The position numbers were made by a program, and so were the translations under genes. Of a stretch of DNA of 64,000 nucleotides, positions 31,157-40,218 are shown in pieces; positions within the stretch are counted from its first letter, which is position 1, and each line of letters starts with the position of its first letter. The DNA lies in contig SHXR01000016.1 of NCBI GenBank assembly GCA_009693235.1, positions 1 to 64,000 of the forward strand, given 5' to 3'. Below the pieces are notes generated by a model, which saw only the letters and a list, made by a program, of their open reading frames with translations, was not told the origin of the DNA and ran no database searches. The DNA is from Betaproteobacteria bacterium. GTDB taxonomy: Bacteria > Pseudomonadota > Gammaproteobacteria > Burkholderiales > SG8-39.

Positions 31157-33175
31157 ATGCAGGCGTCACGATGGATCTACGCGACGCTGGGCATCGCATT
31201 GACCGGCGCAGTCCTGCACCTTTCGGGACTCGCAGCGTGCCTGGAATATCTTCTATCAGATGTCTTCCTCGCTACGGCGGAGCGCGCACCCGATCCATCG
31301 ATCGTTATCGTCGAGATTGACAACGCAAGCTTGGAGAGAATCGGGCGTTGGCCCTGGTCACGCGCCATCCATGCCGAATTCGTCGACCTGGCACAGCGGG
31401 CGGGCGCCAAATCGGTCGGCTTCGACATTGCCTTTGCCGAGCCGGACGCGGCCGATCTGAACGGCGATGCAATATTTGCAGCCACGCTCGCCCGCAGCGA
31501 TCGAGTCGTGTTACCGGTCTTCGTCAAGCGCGATGAGACCGGCATTCCATGGGAATCGCGTCCCCTCCCGCGCCTAGCCGTCGCAGCCAGACTCGGCCGG
31601 GTCGATGTACCGATTGACCGTGATGGCTTGGTACGGCGCACCATTGAGGACCACCGCAACCCCGCTCTCCGCGCAACGACCTTTGCCAATGCAGCGTGGG
31701 AAGCGAGCAAGGAGCCCGCTTCGCCTGGCGATCCGGCCCACCCTGCGAAAGAGCGGCCGCACTATGAAGAACGTCTGATCCCGTTCTGCTCATTTAATGG
31801 GCGTTTCAGTCGACTATCGTTTGCCGACGTCATAGCCGACCCCGGTCAGGCCGCATTCCTACGCGAGCGCATCGTACTCGTCGGCGTCACGGCGCCCCGC
31901 TTGGCTTCCGGACTCCTGGTTCCCGGCAAGGGCAGCCCGCGCATGCTGAGCGGCATTGAAGTGCAAGCGCATGTGCTCAATGCCATCAAACAGGGTTCGC
32001 TCGTGCGCGCGGCAGGTTGGGTCCTCGATGCTACTGCCGCAGTGCTCGCGTTGGTGGTGATGGTCGATGTCATGGTGTTTATGCGTGCTCCTCGCTGGGT
32101 CAATGCCACTGTCGCCGCGACACTCGTCGTCTGCGGATTGGTGCCGGCGTTGCTGCTGCTTAAAAACATCTGGCTGTCGCCCGCGCTGCCTATCCTCATC
32201 CTTACCACCGGATACGCCACCTGGTGGTGGCTCTATCCCCGCACCACGGAGCGTTTGATCCAACCATTCCGATCGCATCCGGATGTGACGAGGCAATCAT
32301 CCGAGGACGCGTTCGTCATGCACAACGAGGACGGCTTGCACGTTGAGCAAGATGACGGGCATGGCAAAAGCAATCTCGATCTGCAAATGGACCTTGCCCA
32401 TGCGATCGAGCGGAACGAACTGCTGTTGCACTATCAGCCACAAATTGATGTGACGGGCGGGCGCGTGGTCGGCGTGGAGGCCCTTATCCGATGGCAGCAT
32501 CCCCGTCTTGGGCTACTTGGCCCCGATCGCATTATCCCGGTCGCGGAAGCTGCCGATCTCATCATCGCCACCGATGATTGGGTAGCCCATACAGCCGCAC
32601 ACCAGCTTGCGGCATGGCGAAAAAGCGATTTTCCGCTATTGACCATGAGTATCAATGTATCGAATCGGCAACTGCTGCGCACCGACCTCGTCACCCTGGC
32701 AAAGCACATCATCGATGAGAGCGACACTGGGCGCGGTGAACTGATCTTCGAGGTCACCGAGCGCATGTTGATACATGACCCTGATCAGTGCGCAAAAACG
32801 ATTGCGGCGATTCGAGGCATCGGCATTGGCGTATCCATCGATGATTTCGGAACCGGATATTCCTCCCTGGCCCATCTTCAGAATCTTACGGTCGACCAGA
32901 TCAAGATCGACCAGTCGTTCATCCAATTGCTACCGGACGATCACGGCGGTGCCGCCACTGTGCAAGCCGTCCTCAACATGGCCCGCACGCTTGGCATTCC
33001 AACCGTCGCGGAAGGCGTCGAAACGAGGGCGCAGCTCGAGTGGCTGCGCGCGCAGCATTGCGAAAAAGTGCAGGGGTACTTGTATAGTCGGCCGGTCGCC
33101 GCCAGCGAGCTTCCCGACCTGATCAATGCGATCCAGAATCGAATGACGCTGGCGCAGGCAATCGCTGAAAAATAA
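31157..33175 (+). CDS. CHASE2-EAL protein: membrane sensor c-di-GMP phosphodiesterase
   Basis: A 672-residue membrane protein. After one N-terminal segment comes a CHASE2 domain (about 30-280, with PDPSIVIVEIDNASL), then three membrane segments (about 285-365), and a cytoplasmic EAL domain (about 405-655). The EAL motif is VEALIRWQHP, with the metal-site segments MSINVSNRQL, EVTERML, SIDDFGTGYSSL and VAEGVET all present. It should hydrolyse cyclic di-GMP in response to an outside signal. There is no GGDEF domain. The same sensor domain occurs in the histidine kinase at 3.5 kb. Confidence 0.9.
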   Translation: MQASRWIYATLGIALTGAVLHLSGLAACLEYLLSDVFLATAERAPDPSIVIVEIDNASLERIGRWPWSRAIHAEFVDLAQRAGAKSVGFDIAFAEPDAADLNGDAIFAATLARSDRVVLPVFVKRDETGIPWESRPLPRLAVAARLGRVDVPIDRDGLVRRTIEDHRNPALRATTFANAAWEASKEPASPGDPAHPAKERPHYEERLIPFCSFNGRFSRLSFADVIADPGQAAFLRERIVLVGVTAPRLASGLLVPGKGSPRMLSGIEVQAHVLNAIKQGSLVRAAGWVLDATAAVLALVVMVDVMVFMRAPRWVNATVAATLVVCGLVPALLLLKNIWLSPALPILILTTGYATWWWLYPRTTERLIQPFRSHPDVTRQSSEDAFVMHNEDGLHVEQDDGHGKSNLDLQMDLAHAIERNELLLHYQPQIDVTGGRVVGVEALIRWQHPRLGLLGPDRIIPVAEAADLIIATDDWVAHTAAHQLAAWRKSDFPLLTMSINVSNRQLLRTDLVTLAKHIIDESDTGRGELIFEVTERMLIHDPDQCAKTIAAIRGIGIGVSIDDFGTGYSSLAHLQNLTVDQIKIDQSFIQLLPDDHGGAATVQAVLNMARTLGIPTVAEGVETRAQLEWLRAQHCEKVQGYLYSRPVAASELPDLINAIQNRMTLAQAIAEK

Positions 33176-34174: not shown

Positions 34175-35242
34175 CTAGCGCGCGTAGAACCGCTCGATGT
34201 TGTCGCAGAAAATATTCTGCCGCGCCTCATCGGTCAGGTCATCGCGTGACATCAATTCATCCACTTCATGCATCGCTCGCTCGACATTCGACTCATGCGG
34301 ATAGTCCGACGCAAAAATGATGTTCCGCGAGCCAATCCGATCGATGAGCGTGCGCATGGACGGTTCACCGCCCTCGCAGCTGAAGTACAACCGGCCGGAC
34401 TTGAAGACATCCGACGGGGACGTCTTCATGAACGACGAATACTCGCGCACTTCCTTGCCAGCCCATCCGGAATACGCGCGGTCGAGCCGGTCGATCATAT
34501 AGGGCACCCATCCGGTGCCGGCCTCGAGGAATCCAACGCGCAAGGTCTTGAAGCGATCGAACACGCCTTCCATGACAAAGCTGGTGAGCTGAATCATTTG
34601 CGATATCGGATGTTCGAGCGCTTGCGTCGCCGCGAAGTGGATCATTGAATTGATGCCAAGGTTCATCGATGGTGCGCCATGCGTTGCAATCGGCACATTG
34701 AGACGCTCGGCTTCTTCGTAGACCGGCCAGAAATCCGGATGCCCGAGCAATTGCCGGACGCCGACATCGGCACTATTGGCTGGCAGCACCGCACCCACCG
34801 CGCCTAGCTCAGTGACCGCGCGGCGCAGTTCCTTCACTGCCTCCGGTACGCTTTGCAGCGGGATCAACGCCATTGCGCGCAGACGCTTCGATTTCCGGTA
34901 ATACCGGTCATGAAACCAATCGTTGTAGGCTCGCGCCAGTGCAATAGCCCATCGCGTGTCCTGGATGGTTGTAAATGAGAGTCCTGCGGTCGGATAGAGC
35001 ACCGTCGATTCGATGCCCATTTTATCCAGCGTATCGAGCCAATTTTGCGACGTGATGTTGTAGTCGGCATAAAGACCCATGCGCGCAATGATGGCGCCCC
35101 GACTGTAGCCGTCCAGCGTCGGGAAAAAGGGATAACCAAGCAGCGACGTATTCTTTGCGTACGGCGCCTCCAGATATTCAAACAACTCGGCGTCGCGCTC
35201 GATGACATGTCCGTCGCCGTCCAGAATTCGCTTTGGTCGCAT
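34175..35242 (-). CDS. Amidohydrolase 2 family protein (decarboxylase/hydrolase type)
   Basis: A 355-residue TIM-barrel protein of the amidohydrolase 2 group, which includes ACMSD and gamma-resorcylate decarboxylase. Seen: DGDGHVIE at the start (the first metal site has D-G-H rather than H-x-H), the histidine in PIATHGAPSM, the motif VGFLEAGTGWVPYM, and the aspartate in FASDYPHES. Such enzymes in Burkholderiales often decarboxylate or hydrolyse aromatic or cyclic acids. It is read in the same direction as, and 35 bases after, the diiron-like gene, so they likely form a two-gene unit. Substrate unknown. Confidence 0.82.
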   Translation of the reverse strand: MRPKRILDGDGHVIERDAELFEYLEAPYAKNTSLLGYPFFPTLDGYSRGAIIARMGLYADYNITSQNWLDTLDKMGIESTVLYPTAGLSFTTIQDTRWAIALARAYNDWFHDRYYRKSKRLRAMALIPLQSVPEAVKELRRAVTELGAVGAVLPANSADVGVRQLLGHPDFWPVYEEAERLNVPIATHGAPSMNLGINSMIHFAATQALEHPISQMIQLTSFVMEGVFDRFKTLRVGFLEAGTGWVPYMIDRLDRAYSGWAGKEVREYSSFMKTSPSDVFKSGRLYFSCEGGEPSMRTLIDRIGSRNIIFASDYPHESNVERAMHEVDELMSRDDLTDEARQNIFCDNIERFYAR

Positions 35243-35277: not shown

Positions 35278-36018
35278 CTAGGTGCGCCGCCGCTTCGCTT
35301 TCGCCGCCAAGCATTGCGAAATCTGCATATCGTTCATCGGGTAGCCGAACATTTCATTGCGCATCGCCACGCGCTGCATACTCACCGCCCGCACGCTTTC
35401 TTGCATACGAGCGAGATCGGCCGCCCTTTTTATGAGGCCCGCCGCCTCCCGCGCCATCTCGTCGTAATGATCCTTTTCGTCGTCGTAGATGACCTGCATT
35501 GCCTTGGCTGTCATCTTATTTAGCCGACTGCCGGTGAGCTTAGCGCCCTCCCGGAAAAGGCGTGCGCCACCACCCTCGGTAAGACCGACGGCGGCGCGAT
35601 CGAGCGGGGAACCGGATTCAACCAGCCGCCGGCGTAAATCGCCCAACTTTTTCTCTTCCGATAACTGGATCGTGTCGGTTGCCGCGATCTTGCGACCGAG
35701 CAAGAACTCCAGGATGTCGGCCAGTACCACATAGTGGTTGAACTCCTGGGTGAGCTGCATCATCAGAAAATGAAAGTGACGCCGGTCGACGCCTTTCTCG
35801 ACCTGGGGAAACATCTCCACCAGATTGGCAAGCTCGCGATGCAAACCGTTGAAATAGCCATCGACCGGATGAAGCTCCTTCCATAGCTGGGCCCGCAGAT
35901 AGTGGATATGCCCGGCCTTGGTCGCCGTCGCGTAAAAGCGCCGGGCAATTTCCGCCTCCGCCTCCCAATAAGGGTAGGCCATATCGAGCAAGGTTTTCTT
36001 GATGACAGCAGGGCTCAT
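35278..36018 (-). CDS. Unrecognised all-helical protein with a putative diiron (ferritin-like) site
   Basis: I do not recognise this 246-residue protein. It appears almost fully helical. Possible iron ligands occur in the order known for four-helix diiron carboxylate proteins: acidic residues in helix 1 (WEAEAEIARR, E19-E23), ExxH in helix 2 (E92-H95 in QEFNHY), a glutamate in a third helix (E148 or E157), and ExxH in helix 4 (E181-H184 in DEKDHY). That is the pattern of ferritin-like oxidases and hydroxylases. It is paired with an amidohydrolase gene downstream. No signal peptide. The reading of the ligands is inference and needs structure prediction. Confidence 0.6.
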   Translation of the reverse strand: MSPAVIKKTLLDMAYPYWEAEAEIARRFYATATKAGHIHYLRAQLWKELHPVDGYFNGLHRELANLVEMFPQVEKGVDRRHFHFLMMQLTQEFNHYVVLADILEFLLGRKIAATDTIQLSEEKKLGDLRRRLVESGSPLDRAAVGLTEGGGARLFREGAKLTGSRLNKMTAKAMQVIYDDEKDHYDEMAREAAGLIKRAADLARMQESVRAVSMQRVAMRNEMFGYPMNDMQISQCLAAKAKRRRT

Positions 36019-36260
36019 AAGGGCTATCGCGACGATCGGATGACGCGATTACAACATGGTCCCTCTGTCTGCGCAAACCCTTCGAACGACGACCTGAGAT
36101 AGGAGAGCGGCGGGCGCGGGTTCCCTACCTTGACTTGCCATGATTTCGCCGCAATTGCGCGTCAGTTTGCCATGCGCGCATCCCGGGTACGCCCGAATTG
36201 GCCGGTTAAATGGTCTGCACGACAGAAGCACTGAACACTCAACCAACGAGGGGCGCATCG

Positions 36261-38363
36261 ATGCAGACCACACGACATTCCCGTTATGCAGCAATGCTTC
36301 TTGCACGGATAGAGAAGGCGTGCGTGCTCGTTTATCTGGCGATCGTCTGGCCGATGCGTTTAGCGCATGCGCAAGAGTACGCGCCAATCCAGCTGCGCGA
36401 CATCCGATCGGGGACGCTGTTGTTCAAAGTCCAAGCAACCGGGACGACCGTCGAATCACTTCGACAGTCCACCGGTGTGACGATCCGCATCGCCGGGATC
36501 GTGGCGCGCGCCACCGTACGACAAACGTTTCGCAACACCACAGATGAATGGATGGAGGGCATCTATGTATTCCCGCTCCCTGAAAATGCCGCGGTCGATC
36601 AGCTGAACATTCGCGTTGGCGAGCGCGTCATTCACGGCATCATCAAAGAGAAAAATGCCGCCAAAGCCGCCTACGAGCAGGCGAAAACGGGAGGACTACA
36701 AACCGCTTTATTGGAGCAGGAGCGTCCGAATCTGTTCACGTCGAATGTCGCAAACATCGGTCCACGCGATGCCATTACCGTCGAGATCGAATACCAACAA
36801 ACACTCCGCTATGACAACGAGCAGTTCTCCATCCGCTTTCCGACCGCGATTACGCCCCGCTACATTCCGGGCAACACGCAGGTCGCCCTGCTCACCGGCA
36901 ACGGTTGGGCCGCCAATACCGATGTCGTCGTGGACGCCGCGCGGATTACGCCTCCTGTGGCGTATCCACGCAATCTCGCCGAGCCTCTTAATTCGATCAC
37001 GCTCAAAGTGATACTCGATGCAGGCGTTCCGCTTGCCGCGGTGGAAAGCGTCTACCATCCGATCCGCACCACGCCAATCGATGATCGCCGTCGCGAGATC
37101 ACACTCGACGGTGACGATGCGGCCACCCGCGATTTCGAGCTCACCTGGACGCCGGCCGCCTCGAATACGCCGCGGACCGCGTTCTTTACCGAGAAAAAAG
37201 CGGGCAAGACATATTGCCTCCTGATGGTGATGCCGCCTTCCGCAACGCCGTCACGCACGCTGCCGCGCGAAGTGATCTACATCATTGATACATCCGGATC
37301 GATGTCTGGGACCTCCATCGCGCAGGCGCGTGAAGCGCTTCGCATGGCCGTCGAACGCCTCGATCCGACGGCGAAATTCAATGTGATCGAGTTCAATTCG
37401 TACGCCAAGGCACTCTTTCAAGACGCCCAGCCTGCTACACCGCAAAACCTCCGAACCGCAGTGCGCTGGATCGACCAACTACGCGCCAATGGCGGGACCG
37501 AAATGGCGCTCGCATTGAACCTCGCTCTCAATGGTAAAGAAAATACCGATCGCATACGGCAGGTCATTTTTCTCACTGATGGCGCGGTGGGCAATGAAGA
37601 GCAACTGTTCAAGCTGATTGCAGACAAGCTCGGCGACTCACGCCTGTTTGCGGTCGGTATCGGTGCCGCACCGAACAGCCACTTCATGACCAAGGCCGCC
37701 CAGACCGGACGCGGTACGTTCACCTATATCAGCAAGGTCGAAGAAGTGAAAGAAAAAATGACGGCACTGTTCCAGAAGTTGGAATCGCCGGTGCTGAAAG
37801 GCATTCAAGTCGCCTGGCCGGAAGCCAAGGGGCCGGCCGATGCGTGGCCGCGCCGGATCCCCGATCTCCATCTGGGTGAGCCGCTCATCGTGAGCGCTGC
37901 CCTCGACGACGCCAAGGGCAGCGTCAAACTCATTGGATTGAATGGTGAATCAATCTGGGACGCCACATTACCGATGGCGCAAGCAACGCCGGGCACCGGA
38001 ATGGGCGTGTTGTGGGCCCGCGAAAAAATCGGCGCACTGACCGACCAACTGAAGGAAGGGAAAGCCGAGGACGAGGTGCGTTCAGCGGTGGTCCAGGTAG
38101 CACTCCAGCATCATCTCGTTTCTCAATATACGAGCCTCGTCGCAATCGACCGAACCCCGGTGCGCCGCTCGGACGATCCCCTCAAGACGGCTGCCCTGCA
38201 GGTGAATTTGCCGGACAGTGCCGATTACGAGGCGATCTTCGGCACGCAGCAAGGCGAGTTGCCGCGCGGGGCAACCTCCGCCCAATTGAATTTCGCGTAT
38301 GGCTTCTTGCTGCTGCTGTTGACGAGCCTGCTGTGCCAGGTCCGTCGCCGACTCGCCAAGTGA
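36261..38363 (+). CDS. VIT/vWA-domain sortase target protein
   Basis: A 700-residue secreted protein. A signal peptide (ending near LAHA) is followed by a VIT domain (about 35-165, GIVARATVRQTFRNTTDEW) and a von Willebrand A domain (about 330-500) with an intact metal-ion-dependent adhesion site, IIDTSGSMSG. The C-terminus is a sorting signal: LPRGAT at 667-672, a hydrophobic stretch (FLLLLLTSLL) and a basic tail (RRRLAK). This is the layout of the dedicated target of proteobacterial class GN sortase, whose gene follows 11 bases downstream. ATG at 36261 is chosen because the basic signal-peptide N-region starts there. It is divergent from the diiron-like gene. Confidence 0.9.
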   Translation: MQTTRHSRYAAMLLARIEKACVLVYLAIVWPMRLAHAQEYAPIQLRDIRSGTLLFKVQATGTTVESLRQSTGVTIRIAGIVARATVRQTFRNTTDEWMEGIYVFPLPENAAVDQLNIRVGERVIHGIIKEKNAAKAAYEQAKTGGLQTALLEQERPNLFTSNVANIGPRDAITVEIEYQQTLRYDNEQFSIRFPTAITPRYIPGNTQVALLTGNGWAANTDVVVDAARITPPVAYPRNLAEPLNSITLKVILDAGVPLAAVESVYHPIRTTPIDDRRREITLDGDDAATRDFELTWTPAASNTPRTAFFTEKKAGKTYCLLMVMPPSATPSRTLPREVIYIIDTSGSMSGTSIAQAREALRMAVERLDPTAKFNVIEFNSYAKALFQDAQPATPQNLRTAVRWIDQLRANGGTEMALALNLALNGKENTDRIRQVIFLTDGAVGNEEQLFKLIADKLGDSRLFAVGIGAAPNSHFMTKAAQTGRGTFTYISKVEEVKEKMTALFQKLESPVLKGIQVAWPEAKGPADAWPRRIPDLHLGEPLIVSAALDDAKGSVKLIGLNGESIWDATLPMAQATPGTGMGVLWAREKIGALTDQLKEGKAEDEVRSAVVQVALQHHLVSQYTSLVAIDRTPVRRSDDPLKTAALQVNLPDSADYEAIFGTQQGELPRGATSAQLNFAYGFLLLLLTSLLCQVRRRLAK

Positions 38364-38374
38364 GGGAGTGGCCG

Positions 38375-39055
38375 ATGTCCGATCAACCCATACAATCCGA
38401 TGCACTGGGTGTCGAATCTGCGCTACCAGCCGGGTATCCCGGAGCGCTGGCACCGGTGAGAACGTCGCACCGTCGCGGATCGCGGATGGTCACGGCGCTC
38501 TTCATGGCATGTCTGGTCGCCGGCCTCTGGCAATTTGGTGCGGGCCTTTACATCCATGCAAAGGCCCGCTTCGCGCAACTGCTCATCGCCAGCGCATGGA
38601 CGAAAACACTCGCGGGTCAGCGCGCGGTGAAGCCATGGTCCTGGGCCGACACCTGGCCGGTGGCGCGTATCCATGCACCCGCAACCGGTAGTGAGCTTTA
38701 TGTGCTGGCCGGATCGGACGGGCGCACCATCGCGTTCGGCCCCGGCCACATGCACGGTACGCCATTGCCGGGCCACCAAGGCAATAGCGTCATCGGTGGC
38801 CATCGCGATACGCACTTTGCGTTCTTGCGCGATCTCAAACACGGTGACGCCTTGACCGTGCAACGCGAAGACGGCGAACTGCGCCACTTCCGCGTCAATG
38901 ATCTGCAAGTCGTGGACAAGTTCGATACCCATGTCGCATCGAATACCGGCCCAACACGCATTACGCTCATCACCTGTTGGCCCTTCAATGCGCTACAACC
39001 GGGCGGACGGGAACGCTATGTGGTGAGCGCGGTGGCCACGTCGGCCTCGTACTGA
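38375..39055 (+). CDS. Class GN sortase
   Basis: A 226-residue membrane-anchored transpeptidase. One membrane segment (MVTALFMACLVAGLWQFGAG) leads into a sortase barrel with all three active-site residues: H143 in VIGGHRDTHF, C201 in LITCWPF and the arginine in GRERYVV. Proteobacterial sortases of this class are found next to a single VIT/vWA target and are thought to fix it in the envelope. The start at 38375 follows GGGAG in good spacing; a longer frame upstream overlaps the target gene and is rejected. Gram-negative bacteria lack the usual cell-wall acceptor, so the anchoring point is unknown. Confidence 0.92.
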   Translation: MSDQPIQSDALGVESALPAGYPGALAPVRTSHRRGSRMVTALFMACLVAGLWQFGAGLYIHAKARFAQLLIASAWTKTLAGQRAVKPWSWADTWPVARIHAPATGSELYVLAGSDGRTIAFGPGHMHGTPLPGHQGNSVIGGHRDTHFAFLRDLKHGDALTVQREDGELRHFRVNDLQVVDKFDTHVASNTGPTRITLITCWPFNALQPGGRERYVVSAVATSASY

Positions 39056-39090: not shown

Positions 39091-40218
39091 TCAACGCTGG
39101 CCAAGTGCATGCGGATCACGCAACGGCGGGACGTCCTTGAAGCGCGGCATGATCTCGCTGGAGAAGAGCCGCATCGATTCCTCAGAGATATAGCGAGTCT
39201 TGCTGGCCCATTCGCCTTGAAAGCGCGCGAGCAGATGGTTGATCCCAAGATCGACCAGCTCTTGTACCTTTGCTGCCACCGTGTCGGGGTGTCCGGCGAT
39301 CGTCGCGTAGGAGTCGCCACCCGCCGCGAACGCAGCAGCAACGGATTCGCCGGGCTTGCGCTTCACCACCGGGCCATCAAGCGATCCGTATTCTGCGATG
39401 AAGCGCTGGCGCAGCTTCAATTGTTCCGCCTTCGCCTCTTCCAACCGTGCGACGGCCTCGGCATCCGATTTCGCCACCACGACGCTCAACCAATCGCAGG
39501 TGCACCAACGCATACACTCTGCGACCACCTCGGGTGGATGATTCGATTCGGCCAGTGTCCGGCGATAGAGGTGAACCTGATCGATAAGGGGCGATTCGGA
39601 ACCGAAGGTGCCAAGGAAGGCGGGCCAGCCATTTTTCGCGGCAGTGACCAGCGCATCGTCGCGACTGGCGGTACGAATAATGGTGGGATGGCGCTTCCGG
39701 TACGGCGCCGGTACGACTCTTCGCGAAATCTTGCCGCGCTGGGTCGGCATCTCGAACATGTAATCCGGATCGCCGGTTCGAAATTTCCAGAGGTTGTGCA
39801 CGATCTCAAGCGTGTCGACCGCGGCGCGTCCGGACCCGTGATATTCCGCGTCGACCCCCATGCCGGCCGGCTCCTTGCCGGGAAAGCCACTGCCAAGCCC
39901 GTAGAGCGTACGCCCTTTGGTCAATTGATCGAGCAAATTCATGCTCTCCACCAAACGCACCGGATGGTAGTAAGACGTGGAGAGCACACCGAACCCAAGA
40001 TAGCGATCAGGCGGCAATTGCGGCGCCAGGAACGCGGCAAACTGCATCGGGTTGCTGTGCCATGGGCCGCGAAAATGGTGCTCGGTGAACCAAGGATTGA
40101 AACCGAGTTGACCGGCGAGAAGCGACTGCTCAATGGCAACGTCGATGACGCGCTCGTCCTCGTCGGGACCGTCGATGGCCGCGACGTACATCGACAGAAT
40201 CATGGTGGAGAAATCCAT
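39091..40218 (-). CDS. Luciferase-like (LLM) flavin-dependent oxidoreductase
   Basis: A 375-residue bacterial-luciferase-like enzyme: FTEHHFRGPW near residues 43-52, GFGVLSTSYYHPVRLVESM, and GRTLYGLGSGFPGKE, all typical of the F420- or FMN-dependent LLM class. Members add oxygen to, or oxidise, diverse substrates with reduced flavin supplied by a partner. No flavin reductase is nearby. It stands alone between the convergent sortase gene and efp. A second LLM gene lies at 50.7 kb. The reaction is unknown. Confidence 0.85.
   Translation of the reverse strand: MDFSTMILSMYVAAIDGPDEDERVIDVAIEQSLLAGQLGFNPWFTEHHFRGPWHSNPMQFAAFLAPQLPPDRYLGFGVLSTSYYHPVRLVESMNLLDQLTKGRTLYGLGSGFPGKEPAGMGVDAEYHGSGRAAVDTLEIVHNLWKFRTGDPDYMFEMPTQRGKISRRVVPAPYRKRHPTIIRTASRDDALVTAAKNGWPAFLGTFGSESPLIDQVHLYRRTLAESNHPPEVVAECMRWCTCDWLSVVVAKSDAEAVARLEEAKAEQLKLRQRFIAEYGSLDGPVVKRKPGESVAAAFAAGGDSYATIAGHPDTVAAKVQELVDLGINHLLARFQGEWASKTRYISEESMRLFSSEIMPRFKDVPPLRDPHALGQR

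Follow-up and report, generated by a model that had tools for sequence, protein, structure and literature searches.

A rare, unclassified protein family with a predicted heme-oxygenase-like fold and a probable non-canonical metal site

The locus and its genes

The window analyzed here is a stretch of 64,000 nucleotides from the contig SHXR01000016.1 of a Betaproteobacteria bacterium. It contains a gene for a protein of 246 aa with an ATG start, followed on the same strand by the gene for an amidohydrolase of the Amidohydro_2 family. The gap between them is 35 bases, exactly as given in the earlier note, and an AGGAG stands shortly before the start of the amidohydrolase gene at 35242. A copy of the 246 aa protein in a sister species of the same genus is 88% identical and dN/dS between the two is 0.075, which indicates that this is a conserved, real protein-coding gene under purifying selection. 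The features discussed below are listed in Table 1.

Table 1. Genes and residues of the window discussed in the text, with candidate metal ligands numbered in the 246 aa protein
Feature	Position	Strand	Remarks
Gene of the heme-oxygenase-like protein	35278..36018	-	246 aa, ATG start
Amidohydro_2 (PF04909) partner	34175..35242	-	355 aa; D10, H12, H188, E240, D313 and H316 correspond to AibH2-type primary ligands
E21-A22-E23	35950..35958	-	helix 1; acids invariant
E48	35875..35877	-	in the invariant pair K47-E48, toward the end of auxiliary helix 2; may be an additional or substitute carboxylate
E92	35743..35745	-	candidate ligand on core helix 1 (the alpha1 acid of HDOs); invariant; pattern as AetD D76 and MboA E86
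H95	35734..35736	-	candidate ligand on core helix 1 (the alpha1 His of HDOs); invariant
E148	35575..35577	-	candidate ligand on core helix 2; invariant
E157	35548..35550	-	on core helix 2, two to three turns past E148; invariant; possible replacement ligand or second-sphere residue
I177	35488..35490	-	position of the first His in HDO alpha3 Hx3[DE]x2H
E181	35476..35478	-	candidate ligand on core helix 3 (the [DE] in Hx3[DE]x2H); invariant
H184	35467..35469	-	candidate ligand on core helix 3 (final His in Hx3[DE]x2H); invariant
EAL-domain protein	31157..33175	+	672 aa
Sortase target protein, then sortase	36210..39055	+	marine proteobacterial sortase target protein (TIGR03788); class GN sortase (TIGR03784)
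Luciferase-like monooxygenase	39091..40218	-	PF00296

No family had been recognized for the protein from its sequence, and the searches bear this out. Pfam, NCBIfam and PHROGs searches returned chance matches only (ADDB_N and IMD, of low E-value, were discounted), as did sequence and profile searches of the PDB (alpha-tocopherol transfer protein and designed bundles). The Pfam models matched none of the 18 family members, and a plasmid search in protein mode gave no match. No dedicated reductase gene adjoins the 246 aa gene, and scans for Rfam families, promoters and terminators around the gene pair found none above chance.

Distribution and conservation of the family

Besides the copy in the sister species, genome searches found a 65% identical relative in one alphaproteobacterial MAG and relatives of 44–47% identity in another three alphaproteobacterial MAGs, of which at least two are marine by their titles. 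A divergent group of homologues, about 28–37% identical to the window protein, is present within the same GTDB family. One of them is a 28% identical paralogue in the genome of the window itself (G000:C18:40352-41056; L002, L029), flanked on one side by a phosphate ABC (Pst) cluster and on the other by a gene for a TctC-type receptor. Members occur in 12 of the 98 genomes of the bacterial family, and a scan of 398 genomes across the phylum found no further convincing member. The protein family is therefore rare, and its distribution is patchy.

In an alignment of 18 homologues, 32 positions are invariant. These include E21, E23, E48, E92, H95, E148, E157, D180, E181 and H184, as well as four arginines, R79, R129, R216 and R220; H60, H83 and E62 are conserved solely in the branch of the window protein. 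Of the 32 invariant positions, 10 are Asp, Glu or His, compared with 40 among all 246 residues (hypergeometric p = 0.018), a modest enrichment because the aligned rows are related. The earlier note had picked out E92xxH95, E181xxH184, a glutamate at 148 or 157 and acids in helix 1 as a metal-binding pattern and had called for its ligands to be compared among homologues. All are present in the protein and all are without variation in the 18 sequences. Since the distant homologues are only 28–31% identical, the motif is more than chance.

Predicted fold

AlphaFold2 models were obtained, from input alignments of six sequences, for the window protein (pLDDT 83.7, pTM 0.82) and for a relative 47% identical to it (pLDDT 86.4, pTM 0.84). 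Both match chains of the heme-oxygenase-like (HO) fold over residues 1–229. The highest structural Z is to TenA (15.4; 194–199 residues at 3.0–3.3 A), alongside CADD (13.6–14.9), HrmI (13.5), UndA (12.6–13.5) and PolF (12.1–12.8), with PqqC, FlcD, BesC, AetD and heme oxygenase also among the matches at Z of about 11–15; helical models can reach a Z of 14 by chance, and every row here belongs to one superfamily, the HO-fold class filling all 50 of the VIA rows listed. TenA and PqqC have the HO fold without a metal. With both models Foldseek gave a probability of 1.00 to HO-fold chains, at E-values of just 0.002–0.01. On these models it is very probable that the window protein has the HO fold, a seven-helix class. 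Of the folds proposed for comparison in the earlier note (ferritin-like, TENA, MiaE and AurF-type), it is thus TENA that the models match best, with some ferritin-like chains lower among the Foldseek rows.

Two details of the window model bear on the candidate site. A helix at residues 34–49 is auxiliary helix 2, and there is a helix break just after E181. In the heme-oxygenase-like dimetal oxidases (HDOs), alpha3 is flexible in the region of this break (PMC13108848, PMC11611611).

Candidate ligands compared with known HO-fold enzymes

The published layout of the HDOs (PF14518 and relatives) is an acid and a His on core helix alpha1, a Glu on alpha2 and the motif Hx3[DE]x2H on alpha3. Known members have 3-His/3-carboxylate or 3-His/4-carboxylate sites, with mononuclear FlcD as the exception (PMC13108848, PMC11363339). 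In AetD the ligands are D76 and H79 on core alpha1, E140 on alpha2 and H172, E176 and H179 on alpha3 (PMC10654658, PMC11611611), and in MboA they are E86 and H89, E143, and H172, D176 and H181 (PMC13185094). FlcD has E181 and H191, E244, and H274, the last two alpha3 positions being lost (PMC11363339).

The window protein resembles the HDOs in its predicted fold, in a core helix 1 that reads E-x2-H as in AetD (D76xxH79) and MboA (E86, H89), in the Glu of core helix 2, in the [DE]xxH of core helix 3 and in the spacing of these residues. For spacing, the reference was a set of 24 proteins of PF14518 taken from the bacterial group that the window itself comes from. The distance from the alpha1 His to the alpha2 Glu is 53 residues in the window protein (H95–E148) and 54–60 in the PF14518 proteins; that from the alpha2 Glu to the last alpha3 His is 36 (E148–H184) and 37–43, respectively, with 48 in two members that have no such Glu. 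This points to E148 as the alpha2 Glu and to E181 and H184 as the last two alpha3 ligands. Placing E157 at the alpha2 position would give 62 and 27, which misfits PF14518, and E157 was rejected as the canonical ligand; of the two glutamates offered earlier, E148 is the one retained. An hhalign comparison with the PF14518 alignment was not significant (E = 0.31), although in it H184 lines up with the final His of that motif in the HDOs. Judged by spacing, helix order and pattern, E92, H95, E148, E181 and H184 would occupy five of the six HDO ligand positions. Their strict retention in the family speaks for a metal site, and we consider it likely that the protein has one.

What sets the family apart is the sixth position. 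Where the HDOs have the first His of alpha3, the six closest sequences have Ile and the other twelve Val. The family also differs in its extra invariant carboxylates, and neither sequence nor profile comparison detects a similarity to PF14518. The diiron site envisaged in the earlier note is thus upheld as a likely metal site of E92/H95, E148 and E181/H184, but one that lacks a canonical ligand. Because this defining feature of alpha3 is absent, we stop short of classing the protein among the canonical HDOs; its mode of action is probably like theirs. FlcD likewise combines the HO fold with an incomplete ligand set, but there the last two alpha3 ligands are lost, whereas the window family has lost the first. 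Another incomplete HDO site is seen in two of the PF14518 proteins (L076, L081), in which an Arg aligns with the core helix 2 Glu and the alpha3 Hx3Dx2H is intact.

Of the further invariant carboxylates, the helix-1 acids E21 and E23, to which a role had been assigned previously, may possibly take part in the site. We do not equate E48 with the Glu that SznF-type proteins have on an auxiliary helix, as E48 and E92 are 44 residues apart against 28 for F48 and D76 of AetD (PMC11611611).

The amidohydrolase partner and genomic surroundings

The partner, itself a likely metalloenzyme, keeps residues that match all six of the AibH2 ligands D25, H27, H211, E265, D337 and H340 (PMC7782822). In sequence, the solved structures closest to it are for the most part amidohydrolase-related dinuclear oxygenases (AROs), namely 8sm9, PtmU3, AibH2 and SfbO, which rank above decarboxylases. 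An acid two residues past the last His (D342 in AibH2, E313 in PtmU3) is reported to be kept only in binuclear members (PMC7782822). Unlike the AROs, the partner has Ser at this second-sphere position (S318; Thr or Pro in its relatives) and has no adjoining Rieske reductase gene.

Do the two genes form a unit? The earlier note suggested a small oxidative or decarboxylating one. The pair is kept in only two genomes, both of one genus, and elsewhere each gene occurs without the other; in five genomes the orthologues of the partner (61–75% identical) have no adjoining HO-fold gene. In addition, the genome has 29 PF04909 stretches, so that finding one of them next to the HO-fold gene is no great surprise. 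The confinement of the pairing to one genus thus lends little weight to a joint unit, and the earlier suggestion is weakened. That the two proteins act in one pathway is conceivable, at odds somewhat below even.

The neighbors of other family members are varied. Those of the 44–47% relatives are a TauD dioxygenase, a UbiD decarboxylase and an NMT1-like binding protein, and those of the 65% relative a thiolase, a ChsH2 OB-fold protein and a BKACE protein. In the divergent group there is a luciferase-like monooxygenase directly upstream (L032, L035), or there are TctC receptors. These varied catabolic neighborhoods support a role in degradation rather than in natural-product synthesis. Genes for luciferase-like monooxygenases are repeatedly found close to HO-fold family members, and one also lies near an orthologue of the partner (L085).

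Proposed function and alternatives

Our preferred reading, to which we give a probability of about 0.58, is that the window gene belongs to an unnamed HO-fold family that carries out HDO-like, metal-dependent oxidation with O2 in catabolism. One or two iron (or Mn/Fe) ions would be bound between core helices 1, 2 and 3 by the five candidate ligands. The metal would activate O2 to oxidize a carboxylate- or CoA-type substrate in the manner of UndA, CADD, AetD and MboA; that the protein is an O2-activating oxidase or oxygenase we hold to be slightly better than an even chance. If the AetD assignment is applied, the Fe2 site (E92, E148, E181 and H184) would be complete and the Fe1 site (H95 with bridging E181) one histidine short. 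The missing ligand may be supplied by E48, E157, E21/E23 or D180, or by the substrate. Several observations count against this reading: the lack of significant sequence or profile similarity to the HDOs, the canonical ligand lost in every member, the metal-free state of TenA and PqqC on the same fold, and the lack of a dedicated reductase gene next to the HO-fold gene. The family is probably a carboxylate-rich, histidine-poor one of HDO-like oxygenases, an altered relative of the HO-fold iron oxygenases. A fuller version can be offered only tentatively: a new family of HO-fold oxygenases that has a dimetal site of two His and four or more carboxylates, acts in catabolism and in one genus lies beside an ARO-like amidohydrolase.

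Has the site instead lost its metal altogether? An enzyme that works without metal on this fold, as TenA (thiaminase II/aminopyrimidine hydrolase) and the cofactorless oxidase PqqC do, would use the invariant Glu, His and Arg residues for acid-base chemistry on an organic substrate. The top Z to TenA chains fits this, the absent alpha3 His could signal a lost metal site, and the four invariant arginines suggest an anionic substrate. Yet PF03070, the family of TenA, matches 0 of the 18 members, and the genome has a separate HO-fold gene that does score with PF03070. The sole Cys, near the C-terminus, is unconserved, which leaves no TenA_C nucleophile, although the TenA_E class (Glu) is compatible. 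Two His and three carboxylates, moreover, are kept at the positions and spacings of HDO ligands. We regard a metal-free enzyme as unlikely, though a good deal less so than a ferritin-like four-helix diiron protein, the bundle supposed in the earlier note. Two His and several carboxylates do resemble the ferritin-like 4C/2H set (PMC13108848), and PaaA/PaaC, CmlI and bacterioferritin are among the lower Foldseek rows for the 47% relative, but HO-fold chains rank at the top with both models and the helix order and length are those of HO-like proteins. The models speak against the bundle, which is now very improbable.

The loss of one ligand could also mean that only one metal is bound. Such a mononuclear-iron enzyme would mirror FlcD, which keeps Fe1 with E181, H191 and H274 only; here the Fe2 set would be kept and one Fe1 ligand lost. 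The first alpha3 His is gone in 18 of 18 sequences, which fits such an enzyme. However, H95, which the AetD scheme makes a ligand of Fe1, is strictly kept and further carboxylates are invariant, suggesting a second metal or a substitute ligand, and we rate a mononuclear enzyme as rather less probable than a metal-free one.

A rare, unclassified HO-fold family with a non-canonical predicted metal site thus remains the probable description. If it is correct, a strictly conserved family with one His fewer would test how far the HO-fold site can shift toward sites rich in carboxylates such as that of methane monooxygenase, which has also been asked of MboA (PMC13185094). Two His with four or more carboxylates would reproduce on another fold the set of ligands seen in methane monooxygenase and R2 proteins. 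The family would also be a so far unannotated group of oxygenases from environmental proteobacteria, outside natural-product clusters.

Other features of the window

The sortase target protein and the class GN sortase, a known pair, lie between the HO-fold gene and the luciferase-like monooxygenase gene. The EAL-domain protein seems to be without the middle region of the 962 aa protein of the sister species (L003, 7886-10774, minus strand). The sister-species contig CAMDRJ010000053.1 (L003) is titled as a Klebsiella pneumoniae MAG; it comes from a sister species of the genome of the window, and the title looks wrong.
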